A DNA stretch of 14,327 nt. Source: Desulfobacterales bacterium. Its GTDB lineage: Bacteria; Desulfobacterota; Desulfobacteria; Desulfobacterales; RPRI01. The notes under the pieces are model-generated. The model did no database searches, was not told where the DNA came from, and saw nothing but the letters and a program-made list of their open reading frames with translations. Below are positions 476 through 14,126 of the stretch, in pieces (the stretch's first letter is position 1; every line of letters starts with the position of its first letter). The translations under genes and the position numbers were made by a program. The stretch spans positions 1-14,327 of the forward strand of contig JAGVOC010000297.1 in assembly GCA_020052975.1 (NCBI GenBank), given 5' to 3'.

Positions 476-781
476 ATGATAGAAATCACGGGTGAAGTTG
501 ATTACAAAGAATTCAGCCAGATGCAGCCGCCAGGCTTGATTTTGCCAAACCAAAAGGATTCTCGTTATATTCCTATCTTTAAGTTACGGCTATTAACTTC
601 AGACGGCAAGATTGTGCAGATATTGTTTAAGGGAGATATTCCAGGAGATGCAAATATTGGTGACCAGGTAACAGTAAAAGGTAATGATAAAGGTGGGGTA
701 ATCCGTGCCCTGAGCATATACAACAATACAACCAACTCCTGGGTTACACCTGGTCCAGGCTTTTTTGCTCGGCTTTTTTGA
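476..781 (+). CDS. Small OB-fold-like protein, function unknown
   Basis: This is a 101-residue soluble protein with no signal peptide or membrane segment. The start is supported by GAGGA (463-467) with an 8-nt spacer. Residues 31-90 alternate predicted strands and turns: IPIFKLRLLTSDGK, then VQILFKGD, then IGDQVTVKGNDKGGVIRA, then LSIYNNTTNSWV. The GDxVxVxG...GVIRAxxIxNxTT pattern is typical of small OB-fold domains, which often bind single-stranded nucleic acid or act as protein-interaction modules. That assignment rests on pattern recognition only. The C-terminus ends in an unusual GPGFFARLF tail, which could be a docking or sorting peptide. The gene sits between repeat copies 1 and 2 and immediately upstream of the HerA-like ATPase, so an accessory role to that ATPase is plausible. 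Confidence 0.7.
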   Translation: MIEITGEVDYKEFSQMQPPGLILPNQKDSRYIPIFKLRLLTSDGKIVQILFKGDIPGDANIGDQVTVKGNDKGGVIRALSIYNNTTNSWVTPGPGFFARLF

Positions 782-932: not shown

Positions 933-940
933 TTTTGGTA

Positions 941-3900
941 ATGGACAACATCAGAAACCCTGGGACTAATCCTGATGAATATGGCAAGTTGGTTCAGCTT
1001 GTAGAAAGGCGAGATTTGGACATGGCAACTGATGTGGAGAGGGAGATTGCATCACAAGTATCTCGTCTATCCACCTTAGATAAAGGTAAATTTCAATTTA
1101 TCAGGATTCTAAGTATTGCCAGGACATTGCCTACCCAAAAAGCCGAAGCCGAAAGATATTTAATGGAAGATGTTATTTCAGGTCTTCACGGTTCAATGAC
1201 CCCTTTCGTTTATCTAATACTTGGTTCAAAATCCTATATAAATGTCTATCTTGGTATTCCCGCCAAACAGCCATCTTCTCAGTATTCTCTAACAGACAAC
1301 CTTGATGTCCTCATTAGTTCATTATGCAGCACATTTCCCAACATAGAGATAAAGACCTTAGATGACGATGAGGTTGAAAAGAATATTCATCAATTCTTTC
1401 GCACTTCTTGCCATTGTGGAATTATGACGGGTATTCCTACGCCCAAGATTGGAATAGAAGAATACGGCACCTATCAGATTGAACGATTACTGCGAGGGTT
1501 GTATCAGCAGGAATTTGGATATATGGTTATCTGTGACCCAATAGTTGACCATGAAATAATCAGGGCATTTGAGGATGTATCCTCAGAGATTAAGGATAAA
1601 TCAATCTTTGTAAAAGAATCACGGCAATATACCCAGACCACTCGCTTAACCCTTAGTGGCGAATCACTCAACAAAGAGGTCCAGTATTACATTGAACTTT
1701 TAGAAACTATTTTTGACAAATTGAAATTGGCAAAGGCACAAGGAATGTGGCGAACCACAACCTATTTTTTCTCTCCAAATCCTGCTACACTCGGTAGAAT
1801 GAAAAACTTGTTAAAGGGTGTCTTTGGTGGTGATAAATCTGTCCCTGAAACGATTAGAACATTAATCCTTACTGGAAACTACTCGAAAACACTGATTGAG
1901 CAATTCCGCCAACTTGAGGTTGAGTTGAATTATCATTCTTTAGGGATACAAGCAGGACATCCTCTACAGCGACTTATGAAATATAAGTTTATGACCCCGC
2001 TCAATTCCCGTGATTTAGCTACCTTAACCCACCTGCCAAAGGAAGAGATGCCGGGATACGATGTTAAGGACACTGCCAGATTTGGGGTTTGTTTGCCATC
2101 TAAACAGGAAGGAATCCATCTTAACATAGGTGAGGTGCTGGACAGGGGCTTATCCACAGGGAATTTCTGTTCTGTAAAGGTGACTGATTTAGTTAAACAT
2201 GGACTTATTGCAGGGGTTACCGGGAGTGGAAAGACCAATACCTGTTTTAATCTCTTATCTCAGCTTTGGAATGGTTCCACTCGTACACCTTTTTTAGTAA
2301 TTGAGCCGGCCAAAACCGAATATCGTGCCCTTTTAAGGGTAGATGGATTCCATGATATGCAGATATTTACCCTGGGAGATGAGACTACCTCTCAATTCAG
2401 GCTAAATCCCTTTGAGGTAATAGAAGGTGTTCAAATCCAATCGCATATTGACCATCTGAGGTCTGTTTTCAATGCCGCCTTTATAATGTATGCCCCGATG
2501 CCTTATGTCCTTGAACGATGCATTCATGAAGTTTATCAAGACAAAGGTTGGGATTTGACCAATAATAAGAATAGATATGCCCGGGATGAAAACTGCAAGG
2601 CAGACATCTTCCCTACCCTAACAGACCTTTACCAAAAGATAGATTCAGTTGTTAATAATCTTGGATATGAAGACAGGATAACGATGGATGTTAAAGCGGC
2701 TTTAAAGACTCGTATCGGAAGCCTTTGTATTGGCGGTAAGGGGGCAATGTTAGACACACGGCTATCAATACCAATAGAACTATTATTATCTAAACCCACT
2801 ATCCTTGAACTGCAATGTATTGGGGATGATGAAGAGAAATCATTTATTATTGGACTGCTTCTAACACGGCTTTATGAATTTCGAGAGGTTGAACACAAAA
2901 GGATGATAGTTATCCATGAGTTCAAACACCTTACCTTGATTGAAGAGGCTCACAGATTATTAACCAGGACTTCGCCGGATTCTGGAAATTTAGAGGTTGT
3001 CGGCACGAAGGCAAAGGGAGTTGAATCCTTTTGTAATATCCTTTCTGAAATTCGGGCATTTGGAGAGGGGATACTAATTGCCGAGCAGATTCCGTCCAAG
3101 TTAGCCGCTGATGCCATTAAAAATAGCAATCTTAAGATTATGCACCGACTTGTAGCCAAAGACGATCGAGATTTTTTAGGTTCTACGATGAATCTGTCCG
3201 AGGAACAAAATAACTATGTTTCAATAATCGAAACAGGAGAAGCGGTTGTCTTTTGTGAGGGATTCCATGAACCCTTTTTAGTCAAGGTGCCTTATTTCCC
3301 TGATGTTAGCCGGATTCAGGCAGGAACAACACCAGGCGATGCCGAGGTCAGGCAATTTATGTCAAAATCATTGCTTGCTCTTGACTATGTCTATGCTAAA
3401 CAAAAAGGATGTGTATCCTGTCAAAATAAGTGCAAGTATTTAGACATAGCAAAGCGTATTTTAGACGCACCTGAACCCAAGAGGGCTTTTACAAGGTATC
3501 TCTTGGCCGCAATAGAGAATAAAGATGCTGTTACATCCAAATATAGTTACTTGAAAGATATTGTGCTTCGTGAAATCTCTGCTCTTTTACTTACTCCAGA
3601 TGAAATAGAAGGGATTATGTTTTGTTTCTTTATCAATGCAGGAAGCCAATTTTTCAGGCACAAGCGAGAGCTATACAAAATATCTTCTCCTGAAATCAGC
3701 CCTTTGCTCGATTGCTACTTTAATACGATCAACTCCTTGTTTGCCGTAAAAATCAAGACACAATTATCGCTGGAAGCCGAAAGACAGGTTGAACGGTTCC
3801 AGCAATTGTATCAGGAAATACTTCAGATTGAAACAGGTCCCTTTCCTGGCTGCAATGAGTTTTGTAAGCACAAATGCCTGTTTAGATTCGAGGTAGAGCA

Positions 3901-4156
3901 AATTATAAAGAATCCTTCTATTGGCAACGGCTTACTTGCGGCTATAAAATCCGGGCCTGATTCAAGAGCAAATGTCAGGAATTTTTGTCTTCAGGTCGCC
4001 AGAGGAATTACTCTTGGGAATAGCCCTGAATTTATCGAAAATATTGCCCTTTGTTTCTTCATTCAAGTATCCATTCAGTGGAGTGTAGAAGAGATTCTGG
4101 CTAATATAAGACAATGGTTTCTGTGTAAGAGTTCACCACTGAAAGACACGGAATAA
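941..4156 (+). CDS. HerA/FtsK-type P-loop ATPase with C-terminal cysteine clusters
   Basis: This is a 1071-residue cytosolic-looking protein with no signal peptide. Residues 1-400 include a YINVYLGI segment and a CHC motif (157-159). The ATPase core begins with the Walker A motif GVTGSGKT (425-432), followed by FLVIEPAKTEYRALL, a typical HerA/DUF87-like stretch. The Walker B region LTLIEEAH (664-671) uses Glu-Glu where HerA proteins usually have Asp-Glu. An LIAEQIPSKL segment and a GEAVVFCEG strand complete the fold. After the core, about 270 residues carry CxxCxxxC (C824, C827, C831) and CxxxCxxxC (C971, C975, C979), which could bind zinc or an iron-sulfur cluster. HerA-family members are hexameric pumps or translocases acting on DNA or protein. 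No NurA nuclease or Sir2 partner is present. The final residues, SPLKDTE, are encoded by repeat copy 3. The substrate is unknown. Confidence 0.88.
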   Translation: MDNIRNPGTNPDEYGKLVQLVERRDLDMATDVEREIASQVSRLSTLDKGKFQFIRILSIARTLPTQKAEAERYLMEDVISGLHGSMTPFVYLILGSKSYINVYLGIPAKQPSSQYSLTDNLDVLISSLCSTFPNIEIKTLDDDEVEKNIHQFFRTSCHCGIMTGIPTPKIGIEEYGTYQIERLLRGLYQQEFGYMVICDPIVDHEIIRAFEDVSSEIKDKSIFVKESRQYTQTTRLTLSGESLNKEVQYYIELLETIFDKLKLAKAQGMWRTTTYFFSPNPATLGRMKNLLKGVFGGDKSVPETIRTLILTGNYSKTLIEQFRQLEVELNYHSLGIQAGHPLQRLMKYKFMTPLNSRDLATLTHLPKEEMPGYDVKDTARFGVCLPSKQEGIHLNIGEVLDRGLSTGNFCSVKVTDLVKHGLIAGVTGSGKTNTCFNLLSQLWNGSTRTPFLVIEPAKTEYRALLRVDGFHDMQIFTLGDETTSQFRLNPFEVIEGVQIQSHIDHLRSVFNAAFIMYAPMPYVLERCIHEVYQDKGWDLTNNKNRYARDENCKADIFPTLTDLYQKIDSVVNNLGYEDRITMDVKAALKTRIGSLCIGGKGAMLDTRLSIPIELLLSKPTILELQCIGDDEEKSFIIGLLLTRLYEFREVEHKRMIVIHEFKHLTLIEEAHRLLTRTSPDSGNLEVVGTKAKGVESFCNILSEIRAFGEGILIAEQIPSKLAADAIKNSNLKIMHRLVAKDDRDFLGSTMNLSEEQNNYVSIIETGEAVVFCEGFHEPFLVKVPYFPDVSRIQAGTTPGDAEVRQFMSKSLLALDYVYAKQKGCVSCQNKCKYLDIAKRILDAPEPKRAFTRYLLAAIENKDAVTSKYSYLKDIVLREISALLLTPDEIEGIMFCFFINAGSQFFRHKRELYKISSPEISPLLDCYFNTINSLFAVKIKTQLSLEAERQVERFQQLYQEILQIETGPFPGCNEFCKHKCLFRFEVEQIIKNPSIGNGLLAAIKSGPDSRANVRNFCLQVARGITLGNSPEFIENIALCFFIQVSIQWSVEEILANIRQWFLCKSSPLKDTE

Positions 4157-4284: not shown

Positions 4285-5100
4285 ATGAAAGAAATAGACC
4301 CAACAAAGGATGGAATTTCCAAAGAGGTAGCTGAGCCTATCGAAAAAAGACGGATAAATACATTCGATGATATAGCTAATTCACCTGACAGCCACCGGCG
4401 GATGGAGACCTTCGATGATATAGCCAGGCAGGGGAAGTCGAAAGATTCTATCAGGACATTTGATGATATCGCTGTGTCTGATAAACGCCAGCCCACCGAA
4501 AGTCAACGGTTTGATGAGGCAGGGGAAAAATTACGGCAGAATGATTGGCTAAAACCTGAAAACTGGAAAAAATTAAATGATACAGAGAAAAGGGTAGCCT
4601 TAGAAAGAGCAGGTAGGCAACTATCTGATGGATACCATCATCCAGATCCGCCTCTCTTTGTAATTTCTGACAAGGACGAGGGGAAAAACTCATTAGGGGT
4701 TTATGGAGATGGATACTCTTATGATAAAAGAAGCGATAAGATTGTCGGCAGTGACTACAGAATTGAGCTAAACAAGGATGGTGAGACAAGGTGTGGAGGA
4801 AAGCTCTTTGGAGACGACCCAAAAGAAGCACTCCACACTTATTCCCATGAATTCAGGCATAGTTATCAGTACGAACAGGCAAACAGGTTTGGAAATGGAT
4901 TTCATACTGATAACCCAGAGCAAGCCAAAGAATGGGCAGAGAATCTGAGAGTGAGAGACTATAAACAGCCGCCAGATAAAAGCTTGGCAGAATCAGACCC
5001 TGAAAAATACAAGAGAGAATTTGCAGAATATGAAAATCAACCGGTGGAAAGGGATGCTAACCATTTTGCGGATGAGATAATAGACCGAATTTACAAGTAA
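4285..5100 (+). CDS. Predicted HExxH metallopeptidase with three N-terminal TFDDIA repeats
   Basis: This is a 271-residue hydrophilic protein. AAAAGGAGGAA (4267-4277) fixes the ATG. Residues 22-69 are three consecutive 16-residue units, each holding an identical TFDDIA hexapeptide (26-31, 42-47, 58-63). A charged linker follows. The C-terminal domain (about 115-271) has a strand-like region and then HTYSHEFRHSYQ, which contains a zincin HExxH motif (H188, E189, H192). Downstream, QPVERDANHFADE supplies E255 as the probable third zinc ligand, as in gluzincin-like peptidases and the DUF4157-like domains of injection-system and polymorphic-toxin proteins. There is no secretion signal. The repeats look like docking or sorting motifs ahead of an enzymatic domain, an architecture common in exported effectors, but export is inferred. 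It lies between repeat copies 3 and 4, downstream of the large ATPase. Confidence 0.8.
   Translation: MKEIDPTKDGISKEVAEPIEKRRINTFDDIANSPDSHRRMETFDDIARQGKSKDSIRTFDDIAVSDKRQPTESQRFDEAGEKLRQNDWLKPENWKKLNDTEKRVALERAGRQLSDGYHHPDPPLFVISDKDEGKNSLGVYGDGYSYDKRSDKIVGSDYRIELNKDGETRCGGKLFGDDPKEALHTYSHEFRHSYQYEQANRFGNGFHTDNPEQAKEWAENLRVRDYKQPPDKSLAESDPEKYKREFAEYENQPVERDANHFADEIIDRIYK
4348..4491 (+). repeat. Three in-frame 48-bp repeats encoding TFDDIA units
   Basis: Three contiguous 48-bp units encode residues 22-69 of the predicted metallopeptidase. The hexapeptide TFDDIA is invariant and recurs at exactly 16 residues, while the flanks vary (RRIN, RRME and DSIR before it). The DNA of the hexamer has drifted at third positions, for example ACATTCGATGATATAGCT against ACCTTCGATGATATAGCC. 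Conservation at the protein level with synonymous change suggests selection on the peptide rather than a fresh duplication. Confidence 0.9.
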
Positions 5101-5284: not shown

Positions 5285-5629
5285 ATGGGTTGTATGCATG
5301 CATTTTGGATGTGGGTGCCAATATTGATATTTAAAGCCATAGCCGCTATTTGTAGATGTCTCTGGACTTTTGTCTTATGGATTCTTCAAACCATTAGCGG
5401 TGTGCCGCTGTACTATTGCAAGCCGGAATTCTTAATCCCGGCCAAGATAATTGGGACAATAGGGATTCTTTTGCTCACTGGTGTAGTCTTTATTATTAGC
5501 CTTTCATCAGGTATAGATACCGATAGCCAGAATAACAATTCCATCCTTTGGACAATTTTTATGAATAGTGCTATCAGTTTCTTGTTATTATGGGGTAGTC
5601 GGATATTAATTAGAAAGGGAGCCGAATAA
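5285..5629 (+). CDS. Small polytopic membrane protein, unknown
   Basis: This is a 114-residue, strongly hydrophobic protein. The start follows AGGGG (5272-5276) with an 8-nt spacer. Three membrane segments are likely: about 10-37 (Trp-rich, with K17, C23, R24 and C25 interrupting it), 52-73 and 86-107. The C-terminus is a short basic tail, RILIRKGAE. Cysteines sit at 3, 23, 25 and 45, and CKPE follows the first segment. I do not recognise the family. The gene lies downstream of the zincin and 48 bp upstream of a second small membrane protein, so the two could form a pair that anchors, regulates or gives passage to products of module 1. That role is inferred from position only. Confidence 0.65.
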   Translation: MGCMHAFWMWVPILIFKAIAAICRCLWTFVLWILQTISGVPLYYCKPEFLIPAKIIGTIGILLLTGVVFIISLSSGIDTDSQNNNSILWTIFMNSAISFLLLWGSRILIRKGAE

Positions 5630-5677
5630 CAAAACTTCCTCTACGAAAAAGTGAAAAAAGAGGAGTCAATACTTTTT

Positions 5678-5836
5678 ATGATAGGTAACTTAATCGAATT
5701 TATAATCTTAGTCGCAGTGGTAAATTTCTTTTTGTATATGATTCTTGGAAGGTTTTCCTTTGGAAGACTGCTCATTTCCCCCTTGACAATCATTGCGGCG
5801 GTCTATATTGGATATAGGTTTTTAAGGAAAAGGTAA
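5678..5836 (+). CDS. Tiny two-TM membrane protein, unknown
   Basis: From the ATG at 5678 the product is 52 residues, with hydrophobic segments at about 5-23 and 31-46 and a basic RFLRKR tail. AGAGGAG (5659-5665) lies 12 nt upstream, which is a rather long spacer. An in-frame GTG at 5651 would add MKKEESILF, but no Shine-Dalgarno precedes it, so I prefer the ATG with limited certainty. The size and shape fit a small membrane subunit or a toxin-like peptide. Neither can be distinguished here. It is the last gene of module 1. Confidence 0.5.
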   Translation: MIGNLIEFIILVAVVNFFLYMILGRFSFGRLLISPLTIIAAVYIGYRFLRKR

Positions 5837-5951: not shown

Positions 5952-6188
5952 AAGCAGGAAATAAGGAATTTTTATCAAAGGGAAACGGAGGGAAAACGGG
6001 AAAAGGATTTAGAATTAAGTGAAAAACAAGGCTTTGGAATAGAAGAAATTCTGTGTTCACTTGCAAGCAATGTTGTTGTGGCAAGAATGATAGGAGACAA
6101 TTCTGAAACTAATTTATTGAGGAATAAGCAGTTACAAAAAAAATACAGAAAAAATAGGACAATCTTTGAAGATTGTGTTATTGTATGA
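5952..6188 (+). pseudogene. Start-less open frame, probable gene remnant
   Basis: A frame is open for 78 codons from just after the TAG at 5949 to a TGA at 6186-6188. It encodes a charged N-terminal half (RETEGKREKDLELSEKQG), then GIEEILCSLASNVVVARMIG and a basic tail. No ATG, GTG or TTG occurs in the first half, and the only later starts (a GTG and an ATG near the middle) lack a ribosome-binding site. This looks like the 3' part of a gene whose start was lost, perhaps through the adjacent repeat. I do not recognise the family, and a chance open frame in AT-rich DNA is possible. Confidence 0.3.
6159..6176. promoter_or_regulatory. Perfect 8+2+8 palindrome upstream of the Ycf46-like operon
   Basis: ACAATCTT-TG-AAGATTGT is a perfect inverted repeat whose right end lies 37 bp before the ATG at 6214. 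The size and symmetry suit an operator for a dimeric regulator. The two-base centre is too tight for a good RNA hairpin and no T-tract follows, so a terminator is unlikely. I could not identify a convincing -35/-10 pair around it. Confidence 0.5.
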
Positions 6189-6213: not shown

Positions 6214-6690
6214 ATGCCGAGGCCAATATTTTTGAATAAGGAAAAAGTTGAAATAAGGTTTTCGACTGATAATTTTAATCGGACAAAAGTTCTTTCTCCT
6301 ATGGAGTTGGATAGAAAACTTCGTCAGAAAAGATCCACCAAATATATCGAGGCGATGACAAAACTTGATTCAGGTGGACATGTTATGAACAAGGAAATTA
6401 TTCGCTCTCTGATAAATGTCATACGCGAGGAGTTGCCGGAGATAACTATAGAGCAACTTCCTATAGGCTTCATTGCCAAATGCTACCTCGAACCTCCCCA
6501 TGAAGTCCATTGTCTGTCCATGGATGGTGAGATCATAAAACACTATAAATCACATGAGTCCTTACCGCCGCTTCTCGAAAGAGCAAGAAGCCTGGCGATT
6601 CACGGGGGATATGCGTTTATCGAAGTCTATCATGACTGCTTGAGAGCAGTAAAAAATGATGGTAGCATTTCTGTAGTAAAGGAGGATTGA
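6214..6690 (+). CDS. Unknown 158-residue protein, first gene of the Ycf46-like operon
   Basis: I place the start at the ATG at 6214 because AGAGGTGAG (6202-6210) sits just upstream. A longer in-frame TTG at 6166 lies within the palindrome and has no ribosome-binding site. The 158-residue product is soluble. A basic N-terminal third (NRTKVLSPMELDRKLRQKRS) leads into helices and a C-terminal alpha/beta part with IGFIAKCYLEPPHEVHCLSMDG and GGYAFIEVYHDCLRAVKNDGS. I do not recognise the family. Its last codons overlap the AAGGAGG ribosome-binding site of the next gene, whose ATG comes 1 nt after the stop, so translation is likely coupled. A role as adaptor or regulator for the operon's membrane complex is inferred from position. 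Confidence 0.8.
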   Translation: MPRPIFLNKEKVEIRFSTDNFNRTKVLSPMELDRKLRQKRSTKYIEAMTKLDSGGHVMNKEIIRSLINVIREELPEITIEQLPIGFIAKCYLEPPHEVHCLSMDGEIIKHYKSHESLPPLLERARSLAIHGGYAFIEVYHDCLRAVKNDGSISVVKED

Positions 6691-6691
6691 T

Positions 6692-8395
6692 ATGCCGGAG
6701 ATAAGTATTGATCTTAGCCCAGTTATGCGCGCAGTGGATGTCGTTAATAATAATTTACGAATTGTAGCTAAAGAGGTTAGTAGCGTTCAGCATAATGTTG
6801 GTGTCGTTGACTCAAAAGTTGAGCGATTGGCTCAAGATTTTTATAGCTTTGTTCTAAAGGATTCAATGGACAAAGAGCTTCAAAGGTCTATGACCGACAT
6901 CATCAGGATTCGACAAGAAATTGAAAAGAAATTTGGCTATTATGACGAGGCAAGACGTAGAATAACCGGTATATTGCAGGCTGTGGATATCAGTGTCGTA
7001 AGGAAAGAAACAATAACGAGTTGCACGGAAGAACTGATGCTATCTGCACCACACTATTGGCTTGCTCCCTGCCTCATAGCATTGGCAGCATGGATAAATA
7101 ACAATCAGGATCTTGCGGATAAGGCAATAAAAGAAGCCTTGAGGAGAGACGATGAAAAGCCGTCTCTTCTCTTTGCACTCATTAGCCGTAGAGCCAACAG
7201 ATTCAATGCCAGTGAAATATGGCTTGAGCGGTACTTCAGCATGCAAGATCCGACAGCACTGGAAAGAAATATGATTGTTGTGATAGACGCATTTGCAAGT
7301 GGACTGTTTGGTGGGGATTCCCATGGTAATTGCTCCAGGCATATTAAGAAATGGATTACTGAACTGTCTGAGAAAGTTGGCTTTGCAGAAGAACAATATA
7401 AGCAATGGTCAGATGCGTTGTTATCCAGGATGCCTGGAGGAGGAGGTGTCCTGTATCCGTACTTAACTAAGTATAGTTCAACATGGGAGCAAATTAACAA
7501 ATCCCTTCTGGCTGCAAAACTTCATCAAGCAATTCTTGATTATTTTCAAAATGTCTTTTCCGGAACAATTTCACCATCACAAAATCTTGCCACAGCAGTT
7601 GACAACCTGTTGGACAAACTTGTTACTAATTTTGATGATGAAGAGCTATCATTGAGACAAGAAGAAAGACTTACAACCTTAATCATTGAAAAAAATGGGG
7701 ACCGTGACGAAGCACAACAGAAATTTGCTCTTGAGAAGGTATCTCTTACCGAATGCTTTAGTTTTACTCAACTTTTGACAAATGCAGCCATGTATTCTGA
7801 AACTTCCCACGCATCAAAAGCAACGCAGTGGTTTGCTATAGCGATGTCAAAAGACTGGATTATCAAAGCCTATGAAGATATTACAGCCAAGAACAGGTCA
7901 AAGGTACCTCTTGACATTAAGCTGAAAATAGAAGGCTGGGAAAATAGTACAAGGGATGGCTCAAATGAAGAGGAACTCCTCAAATCAATAAAGACCTATC
8001 TTAATAATAAACTCACTAAAGCTATCGAGAAAATCAAGTTGAACATAATGCACTGGTTTACACTTGTAGGCGGAATTGCCCTCATAATATTCGGAATAAT
8101 AAATCCCCCTATAAACATTTTAATGCTCGTAATAGGATTAGCAGGACTTGCATGGTTTGGAAAATCATACTCTGACCTCGACAAAAAACGCAAGCAGACA
8201 ATAGATGAGTTCAACAAACTTCAGGAACAATGCCAGAATATTCTTAAGGCAACACTCGCGGAAACTGTGGATGTGAGAAGGGAAATAGCAACCGAAGATT
8301 TAAAGTATGATAAAGTCATACAATTCCTTGAGGAAATAGCACCACAGCAATTTGTTTTTTCAAACTATAGTTCCCGGATGATAGCGGGTAAGTGA
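6692..8395 (+). CDS. Large helical protein with C-terminal membrane hairpin and coiled coils
   Basis: This is a 567-residue protein. The N-terminal 75 residues form a probable coiled coil (VVNNNLRIVAKEVSSVQHNV onward). A long alpha-helical middle region (about 80-440) includes segments such as WLAPCLIALAAWINNNQDLADKAIKEAL that resemble helical-hairpin repeats. Two adjacent membrane segments at about 455-470 and 474-489, joined by an NPP turn, form a re-entrant or hairpin anchor. A charged coiled coil follows (about 490-545). With both long domains on the same side of the hairpin, most of the protein should be cytosolic. GGDSHGNC and a PGGGG loop are visible, but I see no catalytic motif. It is the likely membrane scaffold of this operon. 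I do not recognise the family. Confidence 0.82.
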   Translation: MPEISIDLSPVMRAVDVVNNNLRIVAKEVSSVQHNVGVVDSKVERLAQDFYSFVLKDSMDKELQRSMTDIIRIRQEIEKKFGYYDEARRRITGILQAVDISVVRKETITSCTEELMLSAPHYWLAPCLIALAAWINNNQDLADKAIKEALRRDDEKPSLLFALISRRANRFNASEIWLERYFSMQDPTALERNMIVVIDAFASGLFGGDSHGNCSRHIKKWITELSEKVGFAEEQYKQWSDALLSRMPGGGGVLYPYLTKYSSTWEQINKSLLAAKLHQAILDYFQNVFSGTISPSQNLATAVDNLLDKLVTNFDDEELSLRQEERLTTLIIEKNGDRDEAQQKFALEKVSLTECFSFTQLLTNAAMYSETSHASKATQWFAIAMSKDWIIKAYEDITAKNRSKVPLDIKLKIEGWENSTRDGSNEEELLKSIKTYLNNKLTKAIEKIKLNIMHWFTLVGGIALIIFGIINPPINILMLVIGLAGLAWFGKSYSDLDKKRKQTIDEFNKLQEQCQNILKATLAETVDVRREIATEDLKYDKVIQFLEEIAPQQFVFSNYSSRMIAGK

Positions 8396-8411
8396 AGGAG
8401 GAGATATAACT

Positions 8412-8969
8412 ATGATGTTGTCGAAGCCTCTGTGGGTCAAGCATAAGTGTCCACAATGTGGAACAATGGTAAGCAAGGATGATACGGAATGTCCTGAGTG
8501 TAATCTAGAATTTTGGTCGTGTAACTCCTGTGGAGTAATAATCAGTGAGGATATGACAAAATGTCCAGAGTGTGGTGAAGAATTAGATGAGGAAGAAGAT
8601 ATTTCAGAAGTAGGCGAAGAGTTTGAAGGGGATTCTGCCGGAACATGGACTTGCTCAAAGTGTAATACCATGATAAAAGAAAGGGATATATTTTGCTATA
8701 ATTGTGGAGAGCCAAAGGAACAGATAGAGGAACCTGTGTCACAGGCAGCCTTAGGTAAAATAGTAGATGTGACCATGGGAGAGAAAAAGGGACAAATGAA
8801 GAATATTGTCCCTCAGCCGGTAGAAAAGTCCAGCTTTGACTTTTCTATTCCCACAGTGGAATCATCAAAGCAATCGGTTTATGATGCATCAATTTTTGCA
8901 TCACAGTTTCCAGAGTGGGAATTACTACCGCCAGCAATGCCCATAAGGAGGATAAAACGCAGCGTATGA
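8412..8969 (+). CDS. Triple zinc-ribbon protein
   Basis: The start follows a strong AAGGAGGAG about 8 nt upstream. The 185-residue protein has three zinc ribbons of identical geometry, CxxC-x10-CxxC: C13/C16/C27/C30, C37/C40/C51/C54 and C81/C84/C95/C98. An acidic linker (DEEEDISEVGEEFEG) separates the second and third. The tail (about 105-185) is low in cysteine and predicted to be largely disordered, ending in the basic PIRRIKRSV. Such rubredoxin-like double or triple ribbons usually act as protein-binding adaptors or bind nucleic acid. Here, beside an AAA+ ATPase, an adaptor is the better guess. Its TGA overlaps the next gene's ATG in an ATGA, so the two are translationally coupled. Confidence 0.85.
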   Translation: MMLSKPLWVKHKCPQCGTMVSKDDTECPECNLEFWSCNSCGVIISEDMTKCPECGEELDEEEDISEVGEEFEGDSAGTWTCSKCNTMIKERDIFCYNCGEPKEQIEEPVSQAALGKIVDVTMGEKKGQMKNIVPQPVEKSSFDFSIPTVESSKQSVYDASIFASQFPEWELLPPAMPIRRIKRSV

Positions 8970-9415
8970 CCATACCACAAAGTTATGCAGACTGGATGAA
9001 ATGTTTTGATGAGATAAAGCAAGGATTGAAGGATGAGGAGACAGTGGCTATTATGGAAAAAGGAACTTTGTCGTGGTCAAGCGGTGTTGCGGAGCGGTTC
9101 TCCACTCAGTTGTTTGAAGTAATTAATATTAGAATTGATGGTGCGTCCAAAAGGTTCCAGCGTAACATGGATATGTCAAGAGGAAATGAAACCGCTATAG
9201 TAACTGCACTAATGGGCATAAAGAGGGAGCTGAAATTCTTGAAAAGGTTGACTAATCTTTCCGCTATTCCTGAGGACAAAAGGACATACTTTTTTCAGCA
9301 GATAGTCAATTACGCCAAAAATGTCCAGCAGTCGCTTGAAAACAGTGCAAAAAACGATAGGAGCGGAAGACTGGGTAGTCTTATTAGAAACAATCGGGTT
9401 GATGCATTGGAATAA
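8966..9415 (+). CDS. Small helical protein, unknown, coupled to the zinc-ribbon gene
   Basis: I choose the ATG at 8966, which shares an ATGA with the upstream stop. AAGGAGGA (8945-8952) lies 13 nt upstream. A longer GTG start at 8915 would read through the zinc-ribbon coding sequence and is less likely. The 149-residue product begins MTIPQSYADWMKCFDEI and is almost wholly helical and charged, with ASKRFQRNMDM, a RELKFLKRL helix and a C-terminal basic stretch. There is no membrane segment or catalytic motif. Gene coupling suggests it is made in proportion to the zinc-ribbon protein and may bind it or the AAA+ ATPase that follows. I do not recognise the family. Confidence 0.78.
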   Translation: MTIPQSYADWMKCFDEIKQGLKDEETVAIMEKGTLSWSSGVAERFSTQLFEVINIRIDGASKRFQRNMDMSRGNETAIVTALMGIKRELKFLKRLTNLSAIPEDKRTYFFQQIVNYAKNVQQSLENSAKNDRSGRLGSLIRNNRVDALE

Positions 9416-9438
9416 ATAATCAGGAGGAAGAAAGCAAA

Positions 9439-11001
9439 ATGGCTGATGTTCAAAGTTGTGTAAAGATATTAGAGCGGTACTCAATTGCGAGAATACCGTT
9501 TATCAGTGTCAATACGAGCGAGCGGTCAAGGGTTCTGGAAATCGTAAAGCAGGTTGCTGATAATATCAGATTGCCCTTTTATGTACACACCTTATCAAAA
9601 GGTATGTATGATCTGTCAACCGGACGCACGGTGAATGAAGACCGCTCTGTTTCTGGTGCTCTTGATTTCATCAGTCAACAGGTTAGGCAAAGACAGAACC
9701 TCAGCTTTATTCTGGCAGAAGTTTCCGACATAGAGAATGACAGTTTAACAGCCCGTCAGTTCCTTGATGTCGTTATGCTCGCTGAAGAATGTGGTGCAAT
9801 TATTATCGTAATTACGACTAATCCTGTATGGAGTTCACTTCAGCGATTGGGAATGTCAGTTGCTCTCGATATGCCTTCCGAAGAAGAAATGTTTCAGATT
9901 ATCAAAGAGGCAATTGAGCCTTATCAAAGGGATATTTCTATTGAGTGGGACATAAACGATTACAAGGAGGCAGCTACCATTTTAACAGGAATCAGCCGTA
10001 TTGAGGCACAAAATGTAATTGCTTCGTTAATAGCAAACAGAACTATAAAGAAAGCTGATATGGTGGAATTAAGATACGCTAAAGACCGGATGTTTTCTAA
10101 TATCTCCGGTCTTGAAAGATTTGATATTACAGGAGAGGAATTAAACATTGGAGGACTTAGCGGACTAAAGTTATGGCTTAGTGAAAAACGCCGTCTTCTA
10201 TCAGCAGAAAAAAGAGAAAAGCTCAGGGAAAGGAAAATACCACCTCCGAGAGGTATTTTATTGGTTGGTGTTCCAGGCTGCGGTAAATCCCTGTCTGCAA
10301 AGGCTATTGCGGCAAGCTGGCAGATGCCTTTATACAGACTGGATTTTGCTACAGTTCAGGGGATGTATGTAGGACAAAGCGAGGGAAGGCTCAAAGAAGC
10401 ACTTTGTACTGCAGAGCATATTTCGCCGTGTGTTCTGTGGATTGACGAAATCGAAAAAGGACTGGCAGGTGCACAGGGTTCTGGTGACAGTGGTGTATCA
10501 GTAAGGATGGTGGGACAGTTTTTGTTCTGGCTTCAGGAATGTAGAAAACCGGTTTTTGTTGTTGCAACTTCAAATGATGTTTCAAAATTGCCCCCAGAGC
10601 TTTTAAGACGAGGTAGATTTGATGAATTGTTCTTTGTGGACCTTCCAACAAATGAAGAGCGTAAAGAAATAATAGGTCTTTACATCAAACGATTTCTTAG
10701 AACTGAAATTAGTAATAATCTAATGGAAGAATTAGTTGATTATTCTGAAGGATTCGCCGGTGCAGATTTGGAGTCAGCAGTTAAGGAAGTTGGATATAAT
10801 CTCATTGCAAATGAGAATTTGCAAATTTCTGACGACCTTCTTAAATCAAGTTTTCAGAATGTTGTGCCTTTATCAAAGGTAAATCCTGAAAAGATTGAGG
10901 AGATTCGCAATTGGGGAAGAGAACGGGCAATTCCGGCGTCAGGACAGCCTATCGGTGGAACGTCAGTGCCACACAAGTCACGCAGAATCGTCCTGGTGTG
11001 A
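9439..11001 (+). CDS. Ycf46-like AAA+ ATPase
   Basis: This is a 520-residue AAA+ protein starting after AGGAGGA (9422-9428). The N-terminal half (about 1-210) looks like a degenerate AAA domain: it has core strands (LSFILAEVSDIEN, IIIVITTNPVW) but no Walker A. The C-terminal AAA domain is complete, with Walker A GVPGCGKS (277-284), Walker B VLWIDEIEK (D336, E337), sensor-1 region VATSN (375-379), and LLRRGRFDE with arginine-finger candidates R390, R391 and R393. The inactive-plus-active layout, the GKSLSAKAIA sequence after the P-loop and the wording around APCVLWIDEI/FVVATSN/ELLRRGRFDE match the Ycf46 family of plastids and cyanobacteria. Ycf46 function is poorly understood. This is the motor of the operon, probably a hexamer that remodels a protein partner. 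The last 35 residues form a basic disordered tail. Confidence 0.9.
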   Translation: MADVQSCVKILERYSIARIPFISVNTSERSRVLEIVKQVADNIRLPFYVHTLSKGMYDLSTGRTVNEDRSVSGALDFISQQVRQRQNLSFILAEVSDIENDSLTARQFLDVVMLAEECGAIIIVITTNPVWSSLQRLGMSVALDMPSEEEMFQIIKEAIEPYQRDISIEWDINDYKEAATILTGISRIEAQNVIASLIANRTIKKADMVELRYAKDRMFSNISGLERFDITGEELNIGGLSGLKLWLSEKRRLLSAEKREKLRERKIPPPRGILLVGVPGCGKSLSAKAIAASWQMPLYRLDFATVQGMYVGQSEGRLKEALCTAEHISPCVLWIDEIEKGLAGAQGSGDSGVSVRMVGQFLFWLQECRKPVFVVATSNDVSKLPPELLRRGRFDELFFVDLPTNEERKEIIGLYIKRFLRTEISNNLMEELVDYSEGFAGADLESAVKEVGYNLIANENLQISDDLLKSSFQNVVPLSKVNPEKIEEIRNWGRERAIPASGQPIGGTSVPHKSRRIVLV

Positions 11002-11015
11002 GTTGAGGAGACGAG

Positions 11016-12026
11016 ATGACTATTTGTCCGAAATGCAACGCAATTTATAGTCAGGCAAAGAACTTTTGTGGAAAATGTGGTGTACCTCTCATAACAGGTA
11101 CAACCGTGCCCGTTGCCCAGGGTGTAATAACGCAAACGGCAGCTGATGAACCGACTGAAGAAATACCCTTAGTTATTCCAAAAAGCGATAAAACATCTAT
11201 CTTTGTTGGGATTATATTAACCGTTTTAATAACCGTAGGCGGCTACTTCGGATATGATTATTTTATCGTCAAAAGAGGCTTTATTGGAAAGATAGACAGT
11301 GCTCTTGCAGATGGAAGGTATTTTGCTCCTCCGGGTGATAATGTAGAAGAAATTTACAGGGCAAAAGAGGCTAACTCTCCTGATTCCAGAGAACTGAAAG
11401 AGGCTGCCAATAAAATTATGGTAAAGTTTGGTCAGGAGGGAGACACAGCATTTCAAAATTTTTATAATGAATCGGACGATACAGGCTGGGACAATGTCGT
11501 GAAAATATATGCCTTTCTGATTGAGATTATGCCGGAAGACAATGAGATCCTCGCACGGGCAGCATTTAGCAAGGCACACGAAATTATTCGAGGCAGAGGA
11601 GAAAGTAATTATAGCGAGGCATTGTCACTTTATCAGAAAGCACTCCAGTTAAAGCCGAATTGGGTTATTGCAATCAATGGTATCGCAAAGGGTTATGTCC
11701 GCAAGGATTCTCCTTATTACAATAAGAACAAAGCCATTAATTGGTATAATCGTGCCTGCGAGGCCGACCCCAACTTCCCGTGGGCATATACAAATATAGC
11801 AGCAATTTATTCAGAAGATCGCCAGTGGGAAATGGCGGAGCAATTCCTTCTGAATGCCCTGAATTTAAAAAGAAACCGTCCCTCTATTCTTGCAGATTTG
11901 GGCAATGTGTGTGAAAAACAGAACAAGAAACAGGAGGCGATAAATTATTATCAGGAGGCATTGAAGTATGAGGAGAACCCGGAGAAGATTGACTTGTTAC
12001 AGAAGAAGGTCAACGGTATCTCCTGA
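11016..12026 (+). CDS. Zinc ribbon, transmembrane helix and TPR protein
   Basis: TTGAGGAGAC (11003-11012) precedes the ATG at 11016. The 336-residue protein starts with a CxxC-x10-CxxC zinc ribbon (C4, C7, C18, C21), the same geometry as the three ribbons encoded earlier in the operon. A flexible linker leads to one membrane helix (about 61-82). The remainder is a globular region and then roughly four TPR-like repeats (about 195-330), including YSEALSLYQKALQLKPNW, KAINWYNRACEADPNFPW, EMAEQFLLNALNLK and EAINYYQEALKYEENP. With one membrane pass, the ribbon and the TPRs should lie on opposite sides of the membrane, so it could link an outside TPR receptor to the cytosolic AAA+ machine. The open frame continues 75 codons beyond its TGA. 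Confidence 0.88.
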   Translation: MTICPKCNAIYSQAKNFCGKCGVPLITGTTVPVAQGVITQTAADEPTEEIPLVIPKSDKTSIFVGIILTVLITVGGYFGYDYFIVKRGFIGKIDSALADGRYFAPPGDNVEEIYRAKEANSPDSRELKEAANKIMVKFGQEGDTAFQNFYNESDDTGWDNVVKIYAFLIEIMPEDNEILARAAFSKAHEIIRGRGESNYSEALSLYQKALQLKPNWVIAINGIAKGYVRKDSPYYNKNKAINWYNRACEADPNFPWAYTNIAAIYSEDRQWEMAEQFLLNALNLKRNRPSILADLGNVCEKQNKKQEAINYYQEALKYEENPEKIDLLQKKVNGIS

Positions 12027-12280: not shown

Positions 12281-13990
12281 ATGAAATATAGATATCTCAA
12301 TCAAAAGCAAGAGCAGAAACTCCGTTGGCTATTTTTGTTCAGCGGTGTTATATTACTGACTCTCATATCGGCTTACTTTTACATCCAATGCAGAGCCGTC
12401 TCATACGACATTGCCATAATCAACGCCGATATTCATGATGGAACTAAAGACGGGAAAGGATATAGAGGTGGGGTCGGTATTAAAGGTGATAAAATAGTAA
12501 AGATTTGGAAAGGTCGGTCATGGTTTATCAAGCCGCGAGCGGCACAGCTTATAGACGCTAAGGGTGCTGATTTGTCCCCTGGGTTCATCGACACCCATTC
12601 GCATGCCGACCTCAGCATCAGTAACAGCGGCAACGGCAAGGTCAGTGCCGATAATTTTGTAGGCCAGGGCATTACAACCGTAATTGTGGGGAACTGCGGT
12701 AGGTCACACTCCAACATCCCGGTTTTTGCGCGAAGTTTTAAAAATCGAAAAAGTAATATCAATATTGCGACGCTAATTGGCCTTAACGCAATCAGAAAAA
12801 AAGTTATGAACGAATCCATCGCCCCTGCAAACTTATCCGAGATCGCCAGAATGTGCGAGATGATTAAATCCGGTATGAAGGTTGGTGCATTAGGCGTAAG
12901 TACCGGCCTTGCCTACCCGCCTGGCATTTTCGCTTCAAAGGTTGAAATCGTTGCACAACTGAAAGTCGCAAAAGAGTTCGGTGGTATCCATGCTACCCAT
13001 ATGAGAAACGAAGGCGGAGAGATAAAAAAAGCGGTTGAGGAAGTTATAGATTATTCTCAATCTGCCGGTATTCCTTTACTGATTTCCCATTATAAAATCA
13101 CAGGATTGAAGAATTGCGGTCAATTTGATATGCTGAAAAAAATCATCAACCATGTCCGCTCCAAAGGTATGCAGATACATCTGGACTACTATCCCTATGA
13201 TGCCTCAAGTACAAACCTCAATATCTTTTTGCCGAAATGGTACTTGGCTTTAAACCAAAAGGGTAAATCCAAAGCAATTGCAACGCCGACAGGACGCAAA
13301 AAGATTAAGGTTGGAATTATAGAAGTGTTGAACCATGAAGGCTTCAGTGATTTTAAATTTGCGACAGTGTCTTATTATGCACCACATCGTGAGTGGCAAG
13401 GACACTCATTAGACATCATAGACAGGTTCCGCAGAAAGGCAACCGTTTCTACTCTTGATGGTCAACTGGATATTTTTGTAGAAATGGAAAGTCACGGCGG
13501 GGCACAAATGATATACCATAATATCTATCCTGATGTTATTGATCGTATACCGAAAGAGGAAGAAAACATGATTGGCACAGATAGTGCTATTCGTTATAAC
13601 AACTCTGAATCGATACCTCATCCAAGGGGATGGGGGACATTTCCTCGTTTTATAAGATATTTCGTGAGAGAAAAAAAACTACTCTCTATTGATGAAGCCG
13701 TTTATCGAATGGCAGGACTGCCGGCAAAAGTGTTTCACATAGACAACAGGGGGAAAATACAAAATAATTATTATGCAGACCTCGTCTTGTTTGATGTTAA
13801 AACTATTTCTGATATGGCTACCTATCAGGACCCACTTCTTCCTCCTGTTGGAATTAAATATGTGATAATCAATGGTACGGTTGTCATGGACAACACTGGC
13901 AATAGGAAGGTCAATAAAGGGAACGCTAACATTTTAGATGTTTATCCCGGGCAATTTGTCCAAAGAGGGAAGCGGGAGGTTTGTCAATAG
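12281..13990 (+). CDS. Membrane-anchored N-acyl-D-amino-acid deacylase (D-aminoacylase family)
   Basis: This is a 569-residue amidohydrolase. The start has only a weak ribosome-binding site, but residues 16-36 form a single hydrophobic anchor, which supports it. C37 lacks a proper lipobox. The catalytic domain should face outward. Family hallmarks are HSHAD (106-110), VGNCG with C139, GLAYPPG, THMRNEG, ISHYK, GTDS and HPRGWGTFPRFI. The metal ligands expected for D-aminoacylases are all present: H106, H108, C139, H240, H270 and D434. The family hydrolyses N-acyl-D-amino acids, and relatives act on D-glutamate or dipeptides, so the exact substrate is open. Bacteria use such enzymes in D-amino-acid and cell-wall peptide turnover. 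It has its own leader of over 250 nt and is not obviously part of the upstream operon. Confidence 0.9.
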   Translation: MKYRYLNQKQEQKLRWLFLFSGVILLTLISAYFYIQCRAVSYDIAIINADIHDGTKDGKGYRGGVGIKGDKIVKIWKGRSWFIKPRAAQLIDAKGADLSPGFIDTHSHADLSISNSGNGKVSADNFVGQGITTVIVGNCGRSHSNIPVFARSFKNRKSNINIATLIGLNAIRKKVMNESIAPANLSEIARMCEMIKSGMKVGALGVSTGLAYPPGIFASKVEIVAQLKVAKEFGGIHATHMRNEGGEIKKAVEEVIDYSQSAGIPLLISHYKITGLKNCGQFDMLKKIINHVRSKGMQIHLDYYPYDASSTNLNIFLPKWYLALNQKGKSKAIATPTGRKKIKVGIIEVLNHEGFSDFKFATVSYYAPHREWQGHSLDIIDRFRRKATVSTLDGQLDIFVEMESHGGAQMIYHNIYPDVIDRIPKEEENMIGTDSAIRYNNSESIPHPRGWGTFPRFIRYFVREKKLLSIDEAVYRMAGLPAKVFHIDNRGKIQNNYYADLVLFDVKTISDMATYQDPLLPPVGIKYVIINGTVVMDNTGNRKVNKGNANILDVYPGQFVQRGKREVCQ

Positions 13991-14126
13991 CCTTACAGGA
14001 CACAGTAAGTGGGTGCCGTCTGTTGCCTTCAGTCTGGATGGCAGGTATCTTGCATCAGGGAGTAGGGATGACACCATCAATCTTTGGGAGATACGATATG
14101 GTTTGAGATTTATTAAGAACCCCTGA
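13977..14126 (+). pseudogene. Single WD40-repeat fragment
   Basis: In a different frame from the deacylase and overlapping its last 14 bp, the sequence encodes one nearly complete WD40 repeat. It runs from SLTGHSKWVPSVAFSLDG (from 13989) through RYLASGSRDDTINLWEI (to about 14094), then a short tail and a TGA at 14124-14126. WD40 proteins need several repeats to close a propeller, so this is a remnant. The nearest start (ATG at 13938) lies inside the deacylase gene with no ribosome-binding site. It probably derives from a WD40-repeat gene cut by recombination at the deacylase 3' end. Confidence 0.7.

Follow-up and report, generated by a model that had tools for sequence, protein, structure and literature searches.

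The 14,327-nt stretch of DNA analyzed here (positions 1 to 14,327 of contig JAGVOC010000297.1 in the Desulfobacterales bacterium assembly GCA_020052975.1; hereafter the window) carries a six-gene operon on the plus strand (6214-12026), encoding an AAA+ ATPase, a membrane scaffold and associated proteins, and, upstream on the same strand, genes for a HerA/FtsK-superfamily ATPase and for an effector-like protein with three tandem N-terminal motifs. The operon genes are designated g1 to g6 in the 5' to 3' direction and g1-g5 constitute the core; fetched loci bear L-numbers and genomes bear G-numbers. We propose that the window is a polymorphic-toxin (bacterial conflict) locus in which a HerA pump module is joined to a mobile Ycf46-like membrane module, a reading to which we assign a probability of about 0.5.

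Organization of the six-gene operon

From the list of open reading frames (ORFs) and the sequence, the six plus-strand genes occupy positions 6214-6690, 6692-8395, 8412-8969, 8966-9415, 9439-11001 and 11016-12026. The initial annotation of this DNA had described a compact operon with ribosome-binding sites throughout; its spacings of 1, 16, -4, 23 and 14 nt are reproduced with the starts that it chose (the listed g1 ORF opens earlier, with TTG at 6166, and the listed g4 ORF with GTG at 8915), and a Shine-Dalgarno-like purine stretch was seen by eye ahead of every start. The operon is real.

The g1 protein (158 amino acids (aa), 6214-6690) has 16 invariant positions in 40 aligned sequences and no clear match to a known fold. 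The g2 protein (567 aa, 6692-8395) was characterized by sequence search, Kyte-Doolittle hydropathy scan and AlphaFold2 (mean pLDDT 76, pTM 0.55) as a membrane scaffold with an N-terminal long helix, helical repeats resembling tetratricopeptide repeats (TPRs) at about 83-200, a transmembrane (TM) hairpin at about 450-490 and a long C-terminal helix. The g3 protein (185 aa, 8412-8969) contains three zinc ribbons and ends in a tail of the W..L.PP...RR class, and its gene overlaps by 4 nt that of g4 (149 aa, 8966-9415), another core protein. The g5 protein (520 aa, 9439-11001) is an AAA+ ATPase of the core clade with the C-terminus SRRIVLV, a Pfam AAA domain (PF00004, 3.3e-29) and VCP/CDC48 as its best relatives in the PDB. 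The last protein, g6 (336 aa, 11016-12026), combines a zinc ribbon, one TM segment and TPRs and belongs to a variable accessory class.

Most of the structural features proposed earlier for the operon were confirmed, i.e., four zinc ribbons of identical geometry (CX2CX10CX2C, three in g3 and one in g6), two membrane proteins (the Kyte-Doolittle scan shows hydrophobic segments in g2, at 450 and 472, and in g6, at 60; a further segment at 107 in g5 is probably a buried strand) and the TPRs, found in g6 by Pfam. For the claimed Ycf46-type ATPase, the AAA domain was found, and no model named Ycf46 matched in the Pfam and NCBIfam scans; the designation Ycf46-like follows the initial annotation.

Conservation of the five-gene core

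When protein candidates were scored against g2, 599 of 7999 proved to be relatives. Stretches encoding a g2 relative numbered 245 in a scan limited to one genome per species, and the best-scoring 80 were fetched. Sixty-three of these had enough flanking sequence (at least 6.5 kb downstream and at least 0.7 kb upstream of g2), and g2 was accompanied by g1, g4 and g5 in 62 of them, with g1 located upstream in 33 loci and downstream in 29. The loci were selected through g2 and are the best-scoring 80 of 245, so the figure describes close relatives. Because the four genes recur together in this way, the operon is more than a chance assembly, and the earlier proposal of a dedicated unit of an ATPase and its partners with a membrane scaffold holds for g1, g2, g4 and g5. 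The hosts include Bacilli, Clostridia, Lactobacillales, Burkholderiales, Stenotrophomonas and one metagenome-assembled genome (MAG) of Acidobacteriota. The initial annotation had regarded all six families as one set to be tested for ATPase homologs without partners: the g5 clade is not routinely found without g1, g2 and g4 in these g2-chosen loci, the reverse fails, L132 and L133 having g2 and a g3-type protein but neither g4 nor g5, and g6 falls outside the constant set as a variable accessory.

An unbiased sample was provided by 291 genomes of one class (Clostridia, around G011). Matches to g2 were detected in five (E up to 1e-3), the fifth, in G198, being a fragment, and g5-like proteins were detected in seven (E up to 1e-60). 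Both strong g5 matches (G011 and G284) have g2; the five weaker matches represent further Ycf46-like proteins in different gene neighborhoods, one of them (G126) within the HerA locus L113. The g5 sequences of the core group together to the exclusion of these five (100/100 support); all share an AAA domain placed after an N-terminal half without Walker A (by eye), and the core g5 differs in its fixed gene set and in its R[RK]xVLx-type tail, the tails of the other five having been compared by eye. Two of the four full-length g2 genes (G101 and G211) lack the core ATPase and g4 and are followed by a g3-type tail protein; g2 and g3 thus constitute a separable pair.

The C-terminal tail of g3 fits the pattern W..L.P...RRxK in 60 of the 77 loci with g2 and g4, with a variant in 14 more (by eye). 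Since a zinc ribbon is present in only 27 of the 60 tail-bearing g3 proteins, the conserved part of g3 is the tail and not the ribbons, which goes against the suggestion made earlier that zinc ribbons present clients to the ATPase. The g5 proteins end in a basic-hydrophobic tail of the R[RK]xVLx type in 73 of 77 loci versus 14 of 786 background proteins, a comparison that is descriptive because the pattern was composed after the tails had been inspected; a stricter pattern fits 25 of 77 versus 0 of 786. The exceptions are L033 and L069 (cut by contig ends), L023 (a different end) and L059 (ending in IMNIM). The g5 pattern also fits 19 of 78 g4, 10 of 81 g2 and 0 of 75 g1 proteins, and basic stretches of a similar kind are found at the ends of several g4 and g3 proteins. 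The tails of g5, g4 and g3 may dock on one shared partner, for which the g2 scaffold is the simplest candidate, as the g3 tail persists with g2 where g4 and g5 are absent (L132 and L133). Proteins with an N-terminal zinc ribbon and a TM segment (ZnR-TM), the class to which the arrangement of g6 corresponds, are enriched near the core (11 of 109 ORFs versus 7 of 782 farther away, p 8.7e-7); their outer domains are varied, and one of the 11 is doubtful (L006, an open frame with scattered cysteines).

The g2 scaffold was also observed in other arrangements. In L077 (8018-18132), the exception among the 63 loci, g2 stands without g1, g4 and g5 and is followed after 41 nt by a vWA-like protein and then by a 1175-aa tubulin-like protein (by eye), i.e., another module on the same scaffold. 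In L132 (8596-16960), g2 and a long multi-ribbon g3 precede four zinc-ribbon proteins with hydrophobic segments, and in L133 (5686-10465) a divergent g2 (32%) and a g3-like tail protein lie beside SPFH-like (by eye) and zinc-ribbon genes. L068 (9974-11689) has g2 as two ORFs and an ATPase nearly identical to that of L060, and in L131 (12543-15836, a Fusobacterium record) two TPR-like proteins (by eye), reminiscent of g6, come after the core.

Mobile carriage of the core

The core is carried by mobile elements, as it is found on plasmids and in a satellite phage. Profile searches detected the complete five-gene core on a Komagataeibacter plasmid and a Comamonas plasmid as well as in a Fusobacterium record. 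In the Streptococcus satellite phage Javan368 the five genes are the last ones, opposite the integrase, and the viral-collection contig L138 carries the core with recombinase-like genes a few kb downstream (by eye). The non-ATPase core members are annotated "hypothetical protein" in the sequence records examined.

The effector-like protein and its triple motif

The initial annotation, confined to the operon, was incomplete in its context: it missed the same-strand genes upstream for the HerA ATPase, an OB-like protein and the effector-like protein, and it is the HerA ATPase and the motif-bearing, toxin-like effector that suggest a function. The effector-like protein (271 aa, 4285-5100, plus strand) has three N-terminal TFDDI motifs followed by a metallopeptidase-like C-terminal domain with the sequence HEFRH. 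Among its 64 homologs, 45 have exactly three copies of the motif, 7 have two, 2 have one and 10 have none; the spacing is 15-16 aa in 96 of 97 cases, while only 0.5% of shuffled N-termini contain even one motif. In 30 aligned sequences H188, E189, R191, H192 and E255 are invariant. The metallopeptidase profile of the window protein matches the C-terminal domains of the L067, L118 and L120 effectors (hhalign P 4e-16, 7e-13 and 5e-11) and none of four non-protease controls. The HExxH proteins of L032, L035 and L117 are not matched by this profile and thus represent separate families. A scan of the viral collection with the effector found no relative.

Among the 1467 selected ORFs of the 80 loci, only four contain a triple (F/Y)(D/E/N)D(C/I) motif within the first 260 residues, and all four sit between g5 and g1 in the HerA-linked loci with a continuing contig (L025, L032, L035 and L067), each followed by a smaller gene, which in L025 encodes a SUKH immunity protein. 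One N-terminal motif class precedes different C-termini (HNH-like in L025, seen by eye with no Pfam match; HExxH in L032, L035 and L067), and one metallopeptidase domain stands behind different N-termini (window, L067, L118 and L120). Such shuffling of N-terminal and C-terminal domains is the hallmark of polymorphic toxins.

These data bear on the weakest of the alternatives, which we consider improbable, namely that in this lineage the window effector is not a toxin but a protease with a housekeeping role as partner of HerA. In its favor, no immunity gene is recognized in the window by Pfam or NCBIfam, and the 64 homologs retain the C-terminal domain (the similarity by which they were identified). 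Against it, the domain is homologous to proteins in toxin position in L067, L118 and L120, and the triple-motif layout is common to the window effector and to that of L025, where a SUKH gene comes next.

Two effectors located beside another HerA subgroup (L115, 7172-7819; L118, 6724-8366) share a different N-terminal pattern, roughly (F/Y)(K/R)xI(K/Q)P followed by an acidic stretch with F..N..F (by eye), which suggests that each HerA group has its own signal.

HerA with and without the core

The HerA/FtsK-superfamily ATPase of the window (1073 aa, 935-4156, plus strand) contains the Walker A motif GVTGSGKT and a DUF87 domain (PF01935, 5.6e-5, 23.8 bits against a cut-off of 23.2); NCBIfam model NF033849 matches part of the protein at 1.5e-40, below the cut-off of that model, and HerA-type chains in the PDB match at 1e-7 to 5e-3. 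The search gave 1308 homologs (E up to 1e-10) among 7993 candidates scored. The few named relatives of HerA and the effector include MAGs of Nitrospirota, Anaerolineae, Desulfobacteraceae and Deltaproteobacteria. In metagenomes co-location was judged from contigs of equal size: 18 of the 33 effector homologs listed on contigs of at least 5 kb match the contig size of one of the 57 HerA homologs compared (57 of 120 listed, out of the 1308 found). Among the g2 relatives, inspection by eye revealed no such pairing with HerA.

Directly upstream of HerA lies a gene for a 101-aa protein (476-781, plus strand) without a Pfam or NCBIfam match, which we interpret as OB-like. It is tentatively the counterpart of a gene encoding a zinc ribbon, an OB domain and a TM segment (ZnR-OB-TM) that precedes HerA in some Clostridia and on certain actinobacterial plasmids. 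A profile pooled from HerA-upstream proteins matched it with hhalign P 9.2e-5 (probability 59%), as compared with 0.01 for the best of 100 shuffles and 0.0022 (g3) to 0.82 for five other window proteins, and the g3 control is the reason for our caution. With the actinobacterial set alone P was 0.005, and with the Clostridial ZnR-OB-TM profile alone it was not significant (P 0.15).

A HerA gene lies 0-19 nt upstream of g2 in five of the 80 loci (L025, L032, L035, L067 and L075), preceded by the ZnR-OB-TM gene in four of the five; L075, cut by a contig end, shows only the end of that gene. When 30 core genomes were searched with the window HerA, strong matches occurred only in the four with an adjacent HerA, a match in G018 reaching 5.9e-4. 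Only 14 of the 291 Clostridia genomes contain HerA, with 15 genes in all at E below 1e-40, and at such rarity five adjacencies are not expected by chance. The neighborhoods of 14 of the 15 genes, that of L032 left out, were examined. Nine of these core-less HerA genes are followed within the next three genes by a toxin or putative metallopeptidase family above the Pfam cut-off, i.e., WHH (L109 and L115), LHH (L110), GH-E (L111 and L112, two similar loci), Colicin-DNase (L113), glutamine deamidase (L114), Endonuclea_NS_2 (L116) and DUF6782 (L118). Toxin evidence is weaker in L117, L120 and L121, and none was recognized in L108 and L119. SUKH, SUFU or YezG immunity genes are present in six of the 14 loci, and the other partners vary, including dynamin-like GTPases, Hsp70-like proteins and a Ycf46-like ATPase (mostly by eye). 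Because core-less HerA loci carry toxins together with differing partners, HerA is the component that recurs in a toxin cassette, with the core as one partner among several.

In a quick tree of the core ATPase the HerA-linked loci are scattered (five changes, at least two of them forced by well-supported branches). In a quick tree of HerA, the Clostridial core-linked proteins form one clade with L108 as its sister, and the window HerA falls in a clade whose members share contig sizes with TFDD effectors. Judged from these trees, core-linked HerA is present in two separate HerA lineages, so that the modules either were joined in two lineages or were joined early and separated often.

Further HerA arrangements were noted. 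In L060, a 147-aa ORF 29 nt before g2, where relatives have HerA, gives a weak HerA match (32 bits) and is possibly a remnant. A similar layout occurs in actinobacteria: in L124, L125 and L126 (Rhodococcus and Streptomyces plasmids) an OB-TM-type gene is followed by HerA and then by a low-complexity protein in which a short motif is repeated, such as the three ERPEL copies of L125; the OB-TM-type gene of L125 and L126 contains zinc ribbons. L108 (951-18719) resembles a GTPase-centered conflict system in that the neighbors of HerA and its OB-type partner are a zinc-ribbon GTPase, a protein of vWA type and a 1318-aa protein containing acidic repeats and WDL motifs (by eye).

Proposed function

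In the proposed polymorphic-toxin locus, module A would comprise the OB-like partner, the HerA-family pump and the effector, in which three tandem TFDD(I/L) motifs precede a zinc metallopeptidase domain, and module B would comprise the five-gene core and the accessory ZnR-TM-TPR protein g6. The g2 scaffold, held in the membrane by its TM hairpin, would gather g1, g4, g3 and the AAA+ ring of g5, with g3 attached by its W..L.P...RRxK tail and g5 by its R[RK]xVLx-type tail; both ATPases would act as hexamers. The AAA+ ring would unfold or extract the effector and hand it over to HerA, which would recognize the triple motif and either translocate the effector or place it on the membrane, with a rival cell as its destination, while linked immunity proteins, where present, would protect the producer. 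Gene content, co-occurrence, linkage, motifs, domain homology and mobile carriage are what the data establish; hexamer formation, tail docking, unfolding, motif recognition, export and target belong to the proposal. Most loci have the core without HerA, and the core must therefore have a use of its own, which is probably conflict with phages or other mobile elements, as a satellite phage and plasmids carry it.

Several observations weigh against this proposal. The PDB chains matched by HerA are named DNA helicase, HerA or DUF87, and known HerA members act on DNA or in intracellular defense. The window HerA ends 2 kb ahead of g1, with 377 nt directly before g1, so that the HerA group and the operon may be separate transcription units. 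No full HerA gene lies beside the core in 61 of the 66 loci that reach at least 2.8 kb upstream of g2, HerA-toxin loci occur without the core, and the G101 and G211 genes mentioned above show g2 without the core ATPase. In G284 the core and a HerA-type gene are on different contigs, and the neighbors of the latter (L119) include no recognized toxin. Ten of the 64 effector homologs have no motif and nine have only one or two copies, and the motif pattern was composed after the sequences had been inspected, an earlier, tighter pattern having fitted fewer copies. Finally, the window lacks an immunity gene recognizable by Pfam or NCBIfam, and no secretion signal, outer channel or needle was found, no dedicated tool having been used.

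The main rival explanation is an intracellular immune system, in which the core, with or without HerA, would sense a phage or plasmid at the membrane and release an internal toxin that is otherwise restrained by the immunity proteins, with no export. We regard it as possible, although less probable than the polymorphic-toxin locus; both readings fit a conflict function. It is favored by the core being cargo of the Streptococcus satellite phage and of plasmids, by its presence in L138 with recombinase-like genes downstream, and by the DNA helicases and defense HerA proteins among the solved HerA relatives. In addition, conflict systems centered on nucleoside triphosphatases (NTPases), with variable effectors and no sign of secretion, are described in PMC7159879 (Kaur et al. 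2020). L108 is of this general style, since HerA and its OB-type partner accompany a GTPase with a zinc ribbon, a vWA protein and a large partner protein (by eye). Two observations count against the immune reading. In the window, PADLOC matched only HerA, IetA, mad8, TRIP13 and TPR models (in HerA, the AAA domain and g6), and the SUKH, SUFU and YezG genes and colicin-DNase, WHH, LHH and GH-E domains near HerA are of kinds typical of delivered polymorphic toxins.

Less plausible is that the core is an independent machine for membrane-protein remodeling or stress beside which the HerA-toxin cassette is a passenger. The core occurs without HerA in most of the 80 loci, g2 and g3 recombine with other membrane modules (L132 and L133) and g2 appears alone in L077 (partly by eye), and the five changes on the core tree would also agree with a passenger. 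In the Clostridia, however, the effector and its neighbor gene are inserted between g5 and g1 and HerA lies 0-19 nt from g2, and the linkage is seen in two HerA lineages. A pure remodeling complex, as the initial annotation had put forward, in which the TPR protein might sense across the membrane, is less likely than a conflict function.

A broader proposal, put forward only tentatively, is that the polymorphic-toxin locus exemplifies an undescribed ATP-driven form of protein delivery: HerA pumps with a ZnR-OB membrane adaptor would recognize effectors via short tandem motifs (three copies of TFDD/FDDC), exchangeable NTPase modules, the core included, would energize or gate the transfer, and the core would be a mobile conflict system in its own right, to which toxins can be added as weapons.

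Relation to known systems

The HerA-linked loci resemble polymorphic toxins (2012, PMC3482391) in a shared N-terminal region, different C-terminal toxins and, in some of the loci, adjacent immunity genes; export in these loci is our own proposal. That source names FtsK/HerA-type ATPases for type VII and type IV secretion, and a search of its text for "AAA+", "zinc ribbon" and "DUF87" found none of the three. The systems of PMC7159879, built on MoxR-vWA and GTPase-GAP1 hubs, are alike in having an NTPase hub, zinc ribbons, membrane partners and variable effectors; in that text, "ycf46" is absent and "HerA" occurs in one reference title only. Neither MoxR with vWA nor a TRAFAC GTPase with GAP1 was detected among the ten window proteins scanned, and the same proteins include no NurA, no Sir2 and no sheath, tube or baseplate component of contractile injection systems (eCIS, PVC). 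HerA-based systems include NurA-HerA and the Sir2-HerA defense system; the window HerA has the HerA/DUF87 core in common with them and differs in its long N-terminal part and its effector neighbor. Type VII secretion employs EssC with WXG/LXG substrates and is alike in its FtsK-HerA superfamily ATPase and toxin substrates; among the ten proteins of the 14-kb window no WXG match was found, and FtsK_SpoIIIE scored 15.4 bits against a cut-off of 24.

Polymorphic toxins, HerA pumps and AAA+ rings are thus known, while no description of the five-gene unit, of HerA-linked triple-motif toxins or of their combination was found in the titles and abstracts of the openly licensed papers searched. The proposal joins a widespread AAA+ operon, a large HerA-like family of unclear use and toxin-immunity genes without a recognized delivery route. 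If it is correct, a short repeated motif would predict the substrates of an ATPase class, export would be directly testable, and the five-gene core, present in a satellite phage, on plasmids and on the chromosomes of bacteria from several phyla, would represent a new kind of mobile conflict module. Should the export idea be mistaken, g1, g2, g4 and g5 with their docking-like tails still define an AAA+ complex that can be expressed and purified.

Other genes in the window

Two small hydrophobic plus-strand ORFs lie between the HerA/effector group and g1. The first (5285-5629) encodes a 114-aa protein with two hydrophobic segments and no family match above cut-off, the position of which would fit an immunity protein; the second (5651-5836), known from the ORF list only, is a 61-aa frame with a GTG start that is possibly coding. 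Downstream of g6, the region 12281-13990 resembles an N-acyl-D-amino-acid deacylase and 13938-14126 resembles part of a WD40 protein (both by eye); the two are apparently unrelated to the operon.

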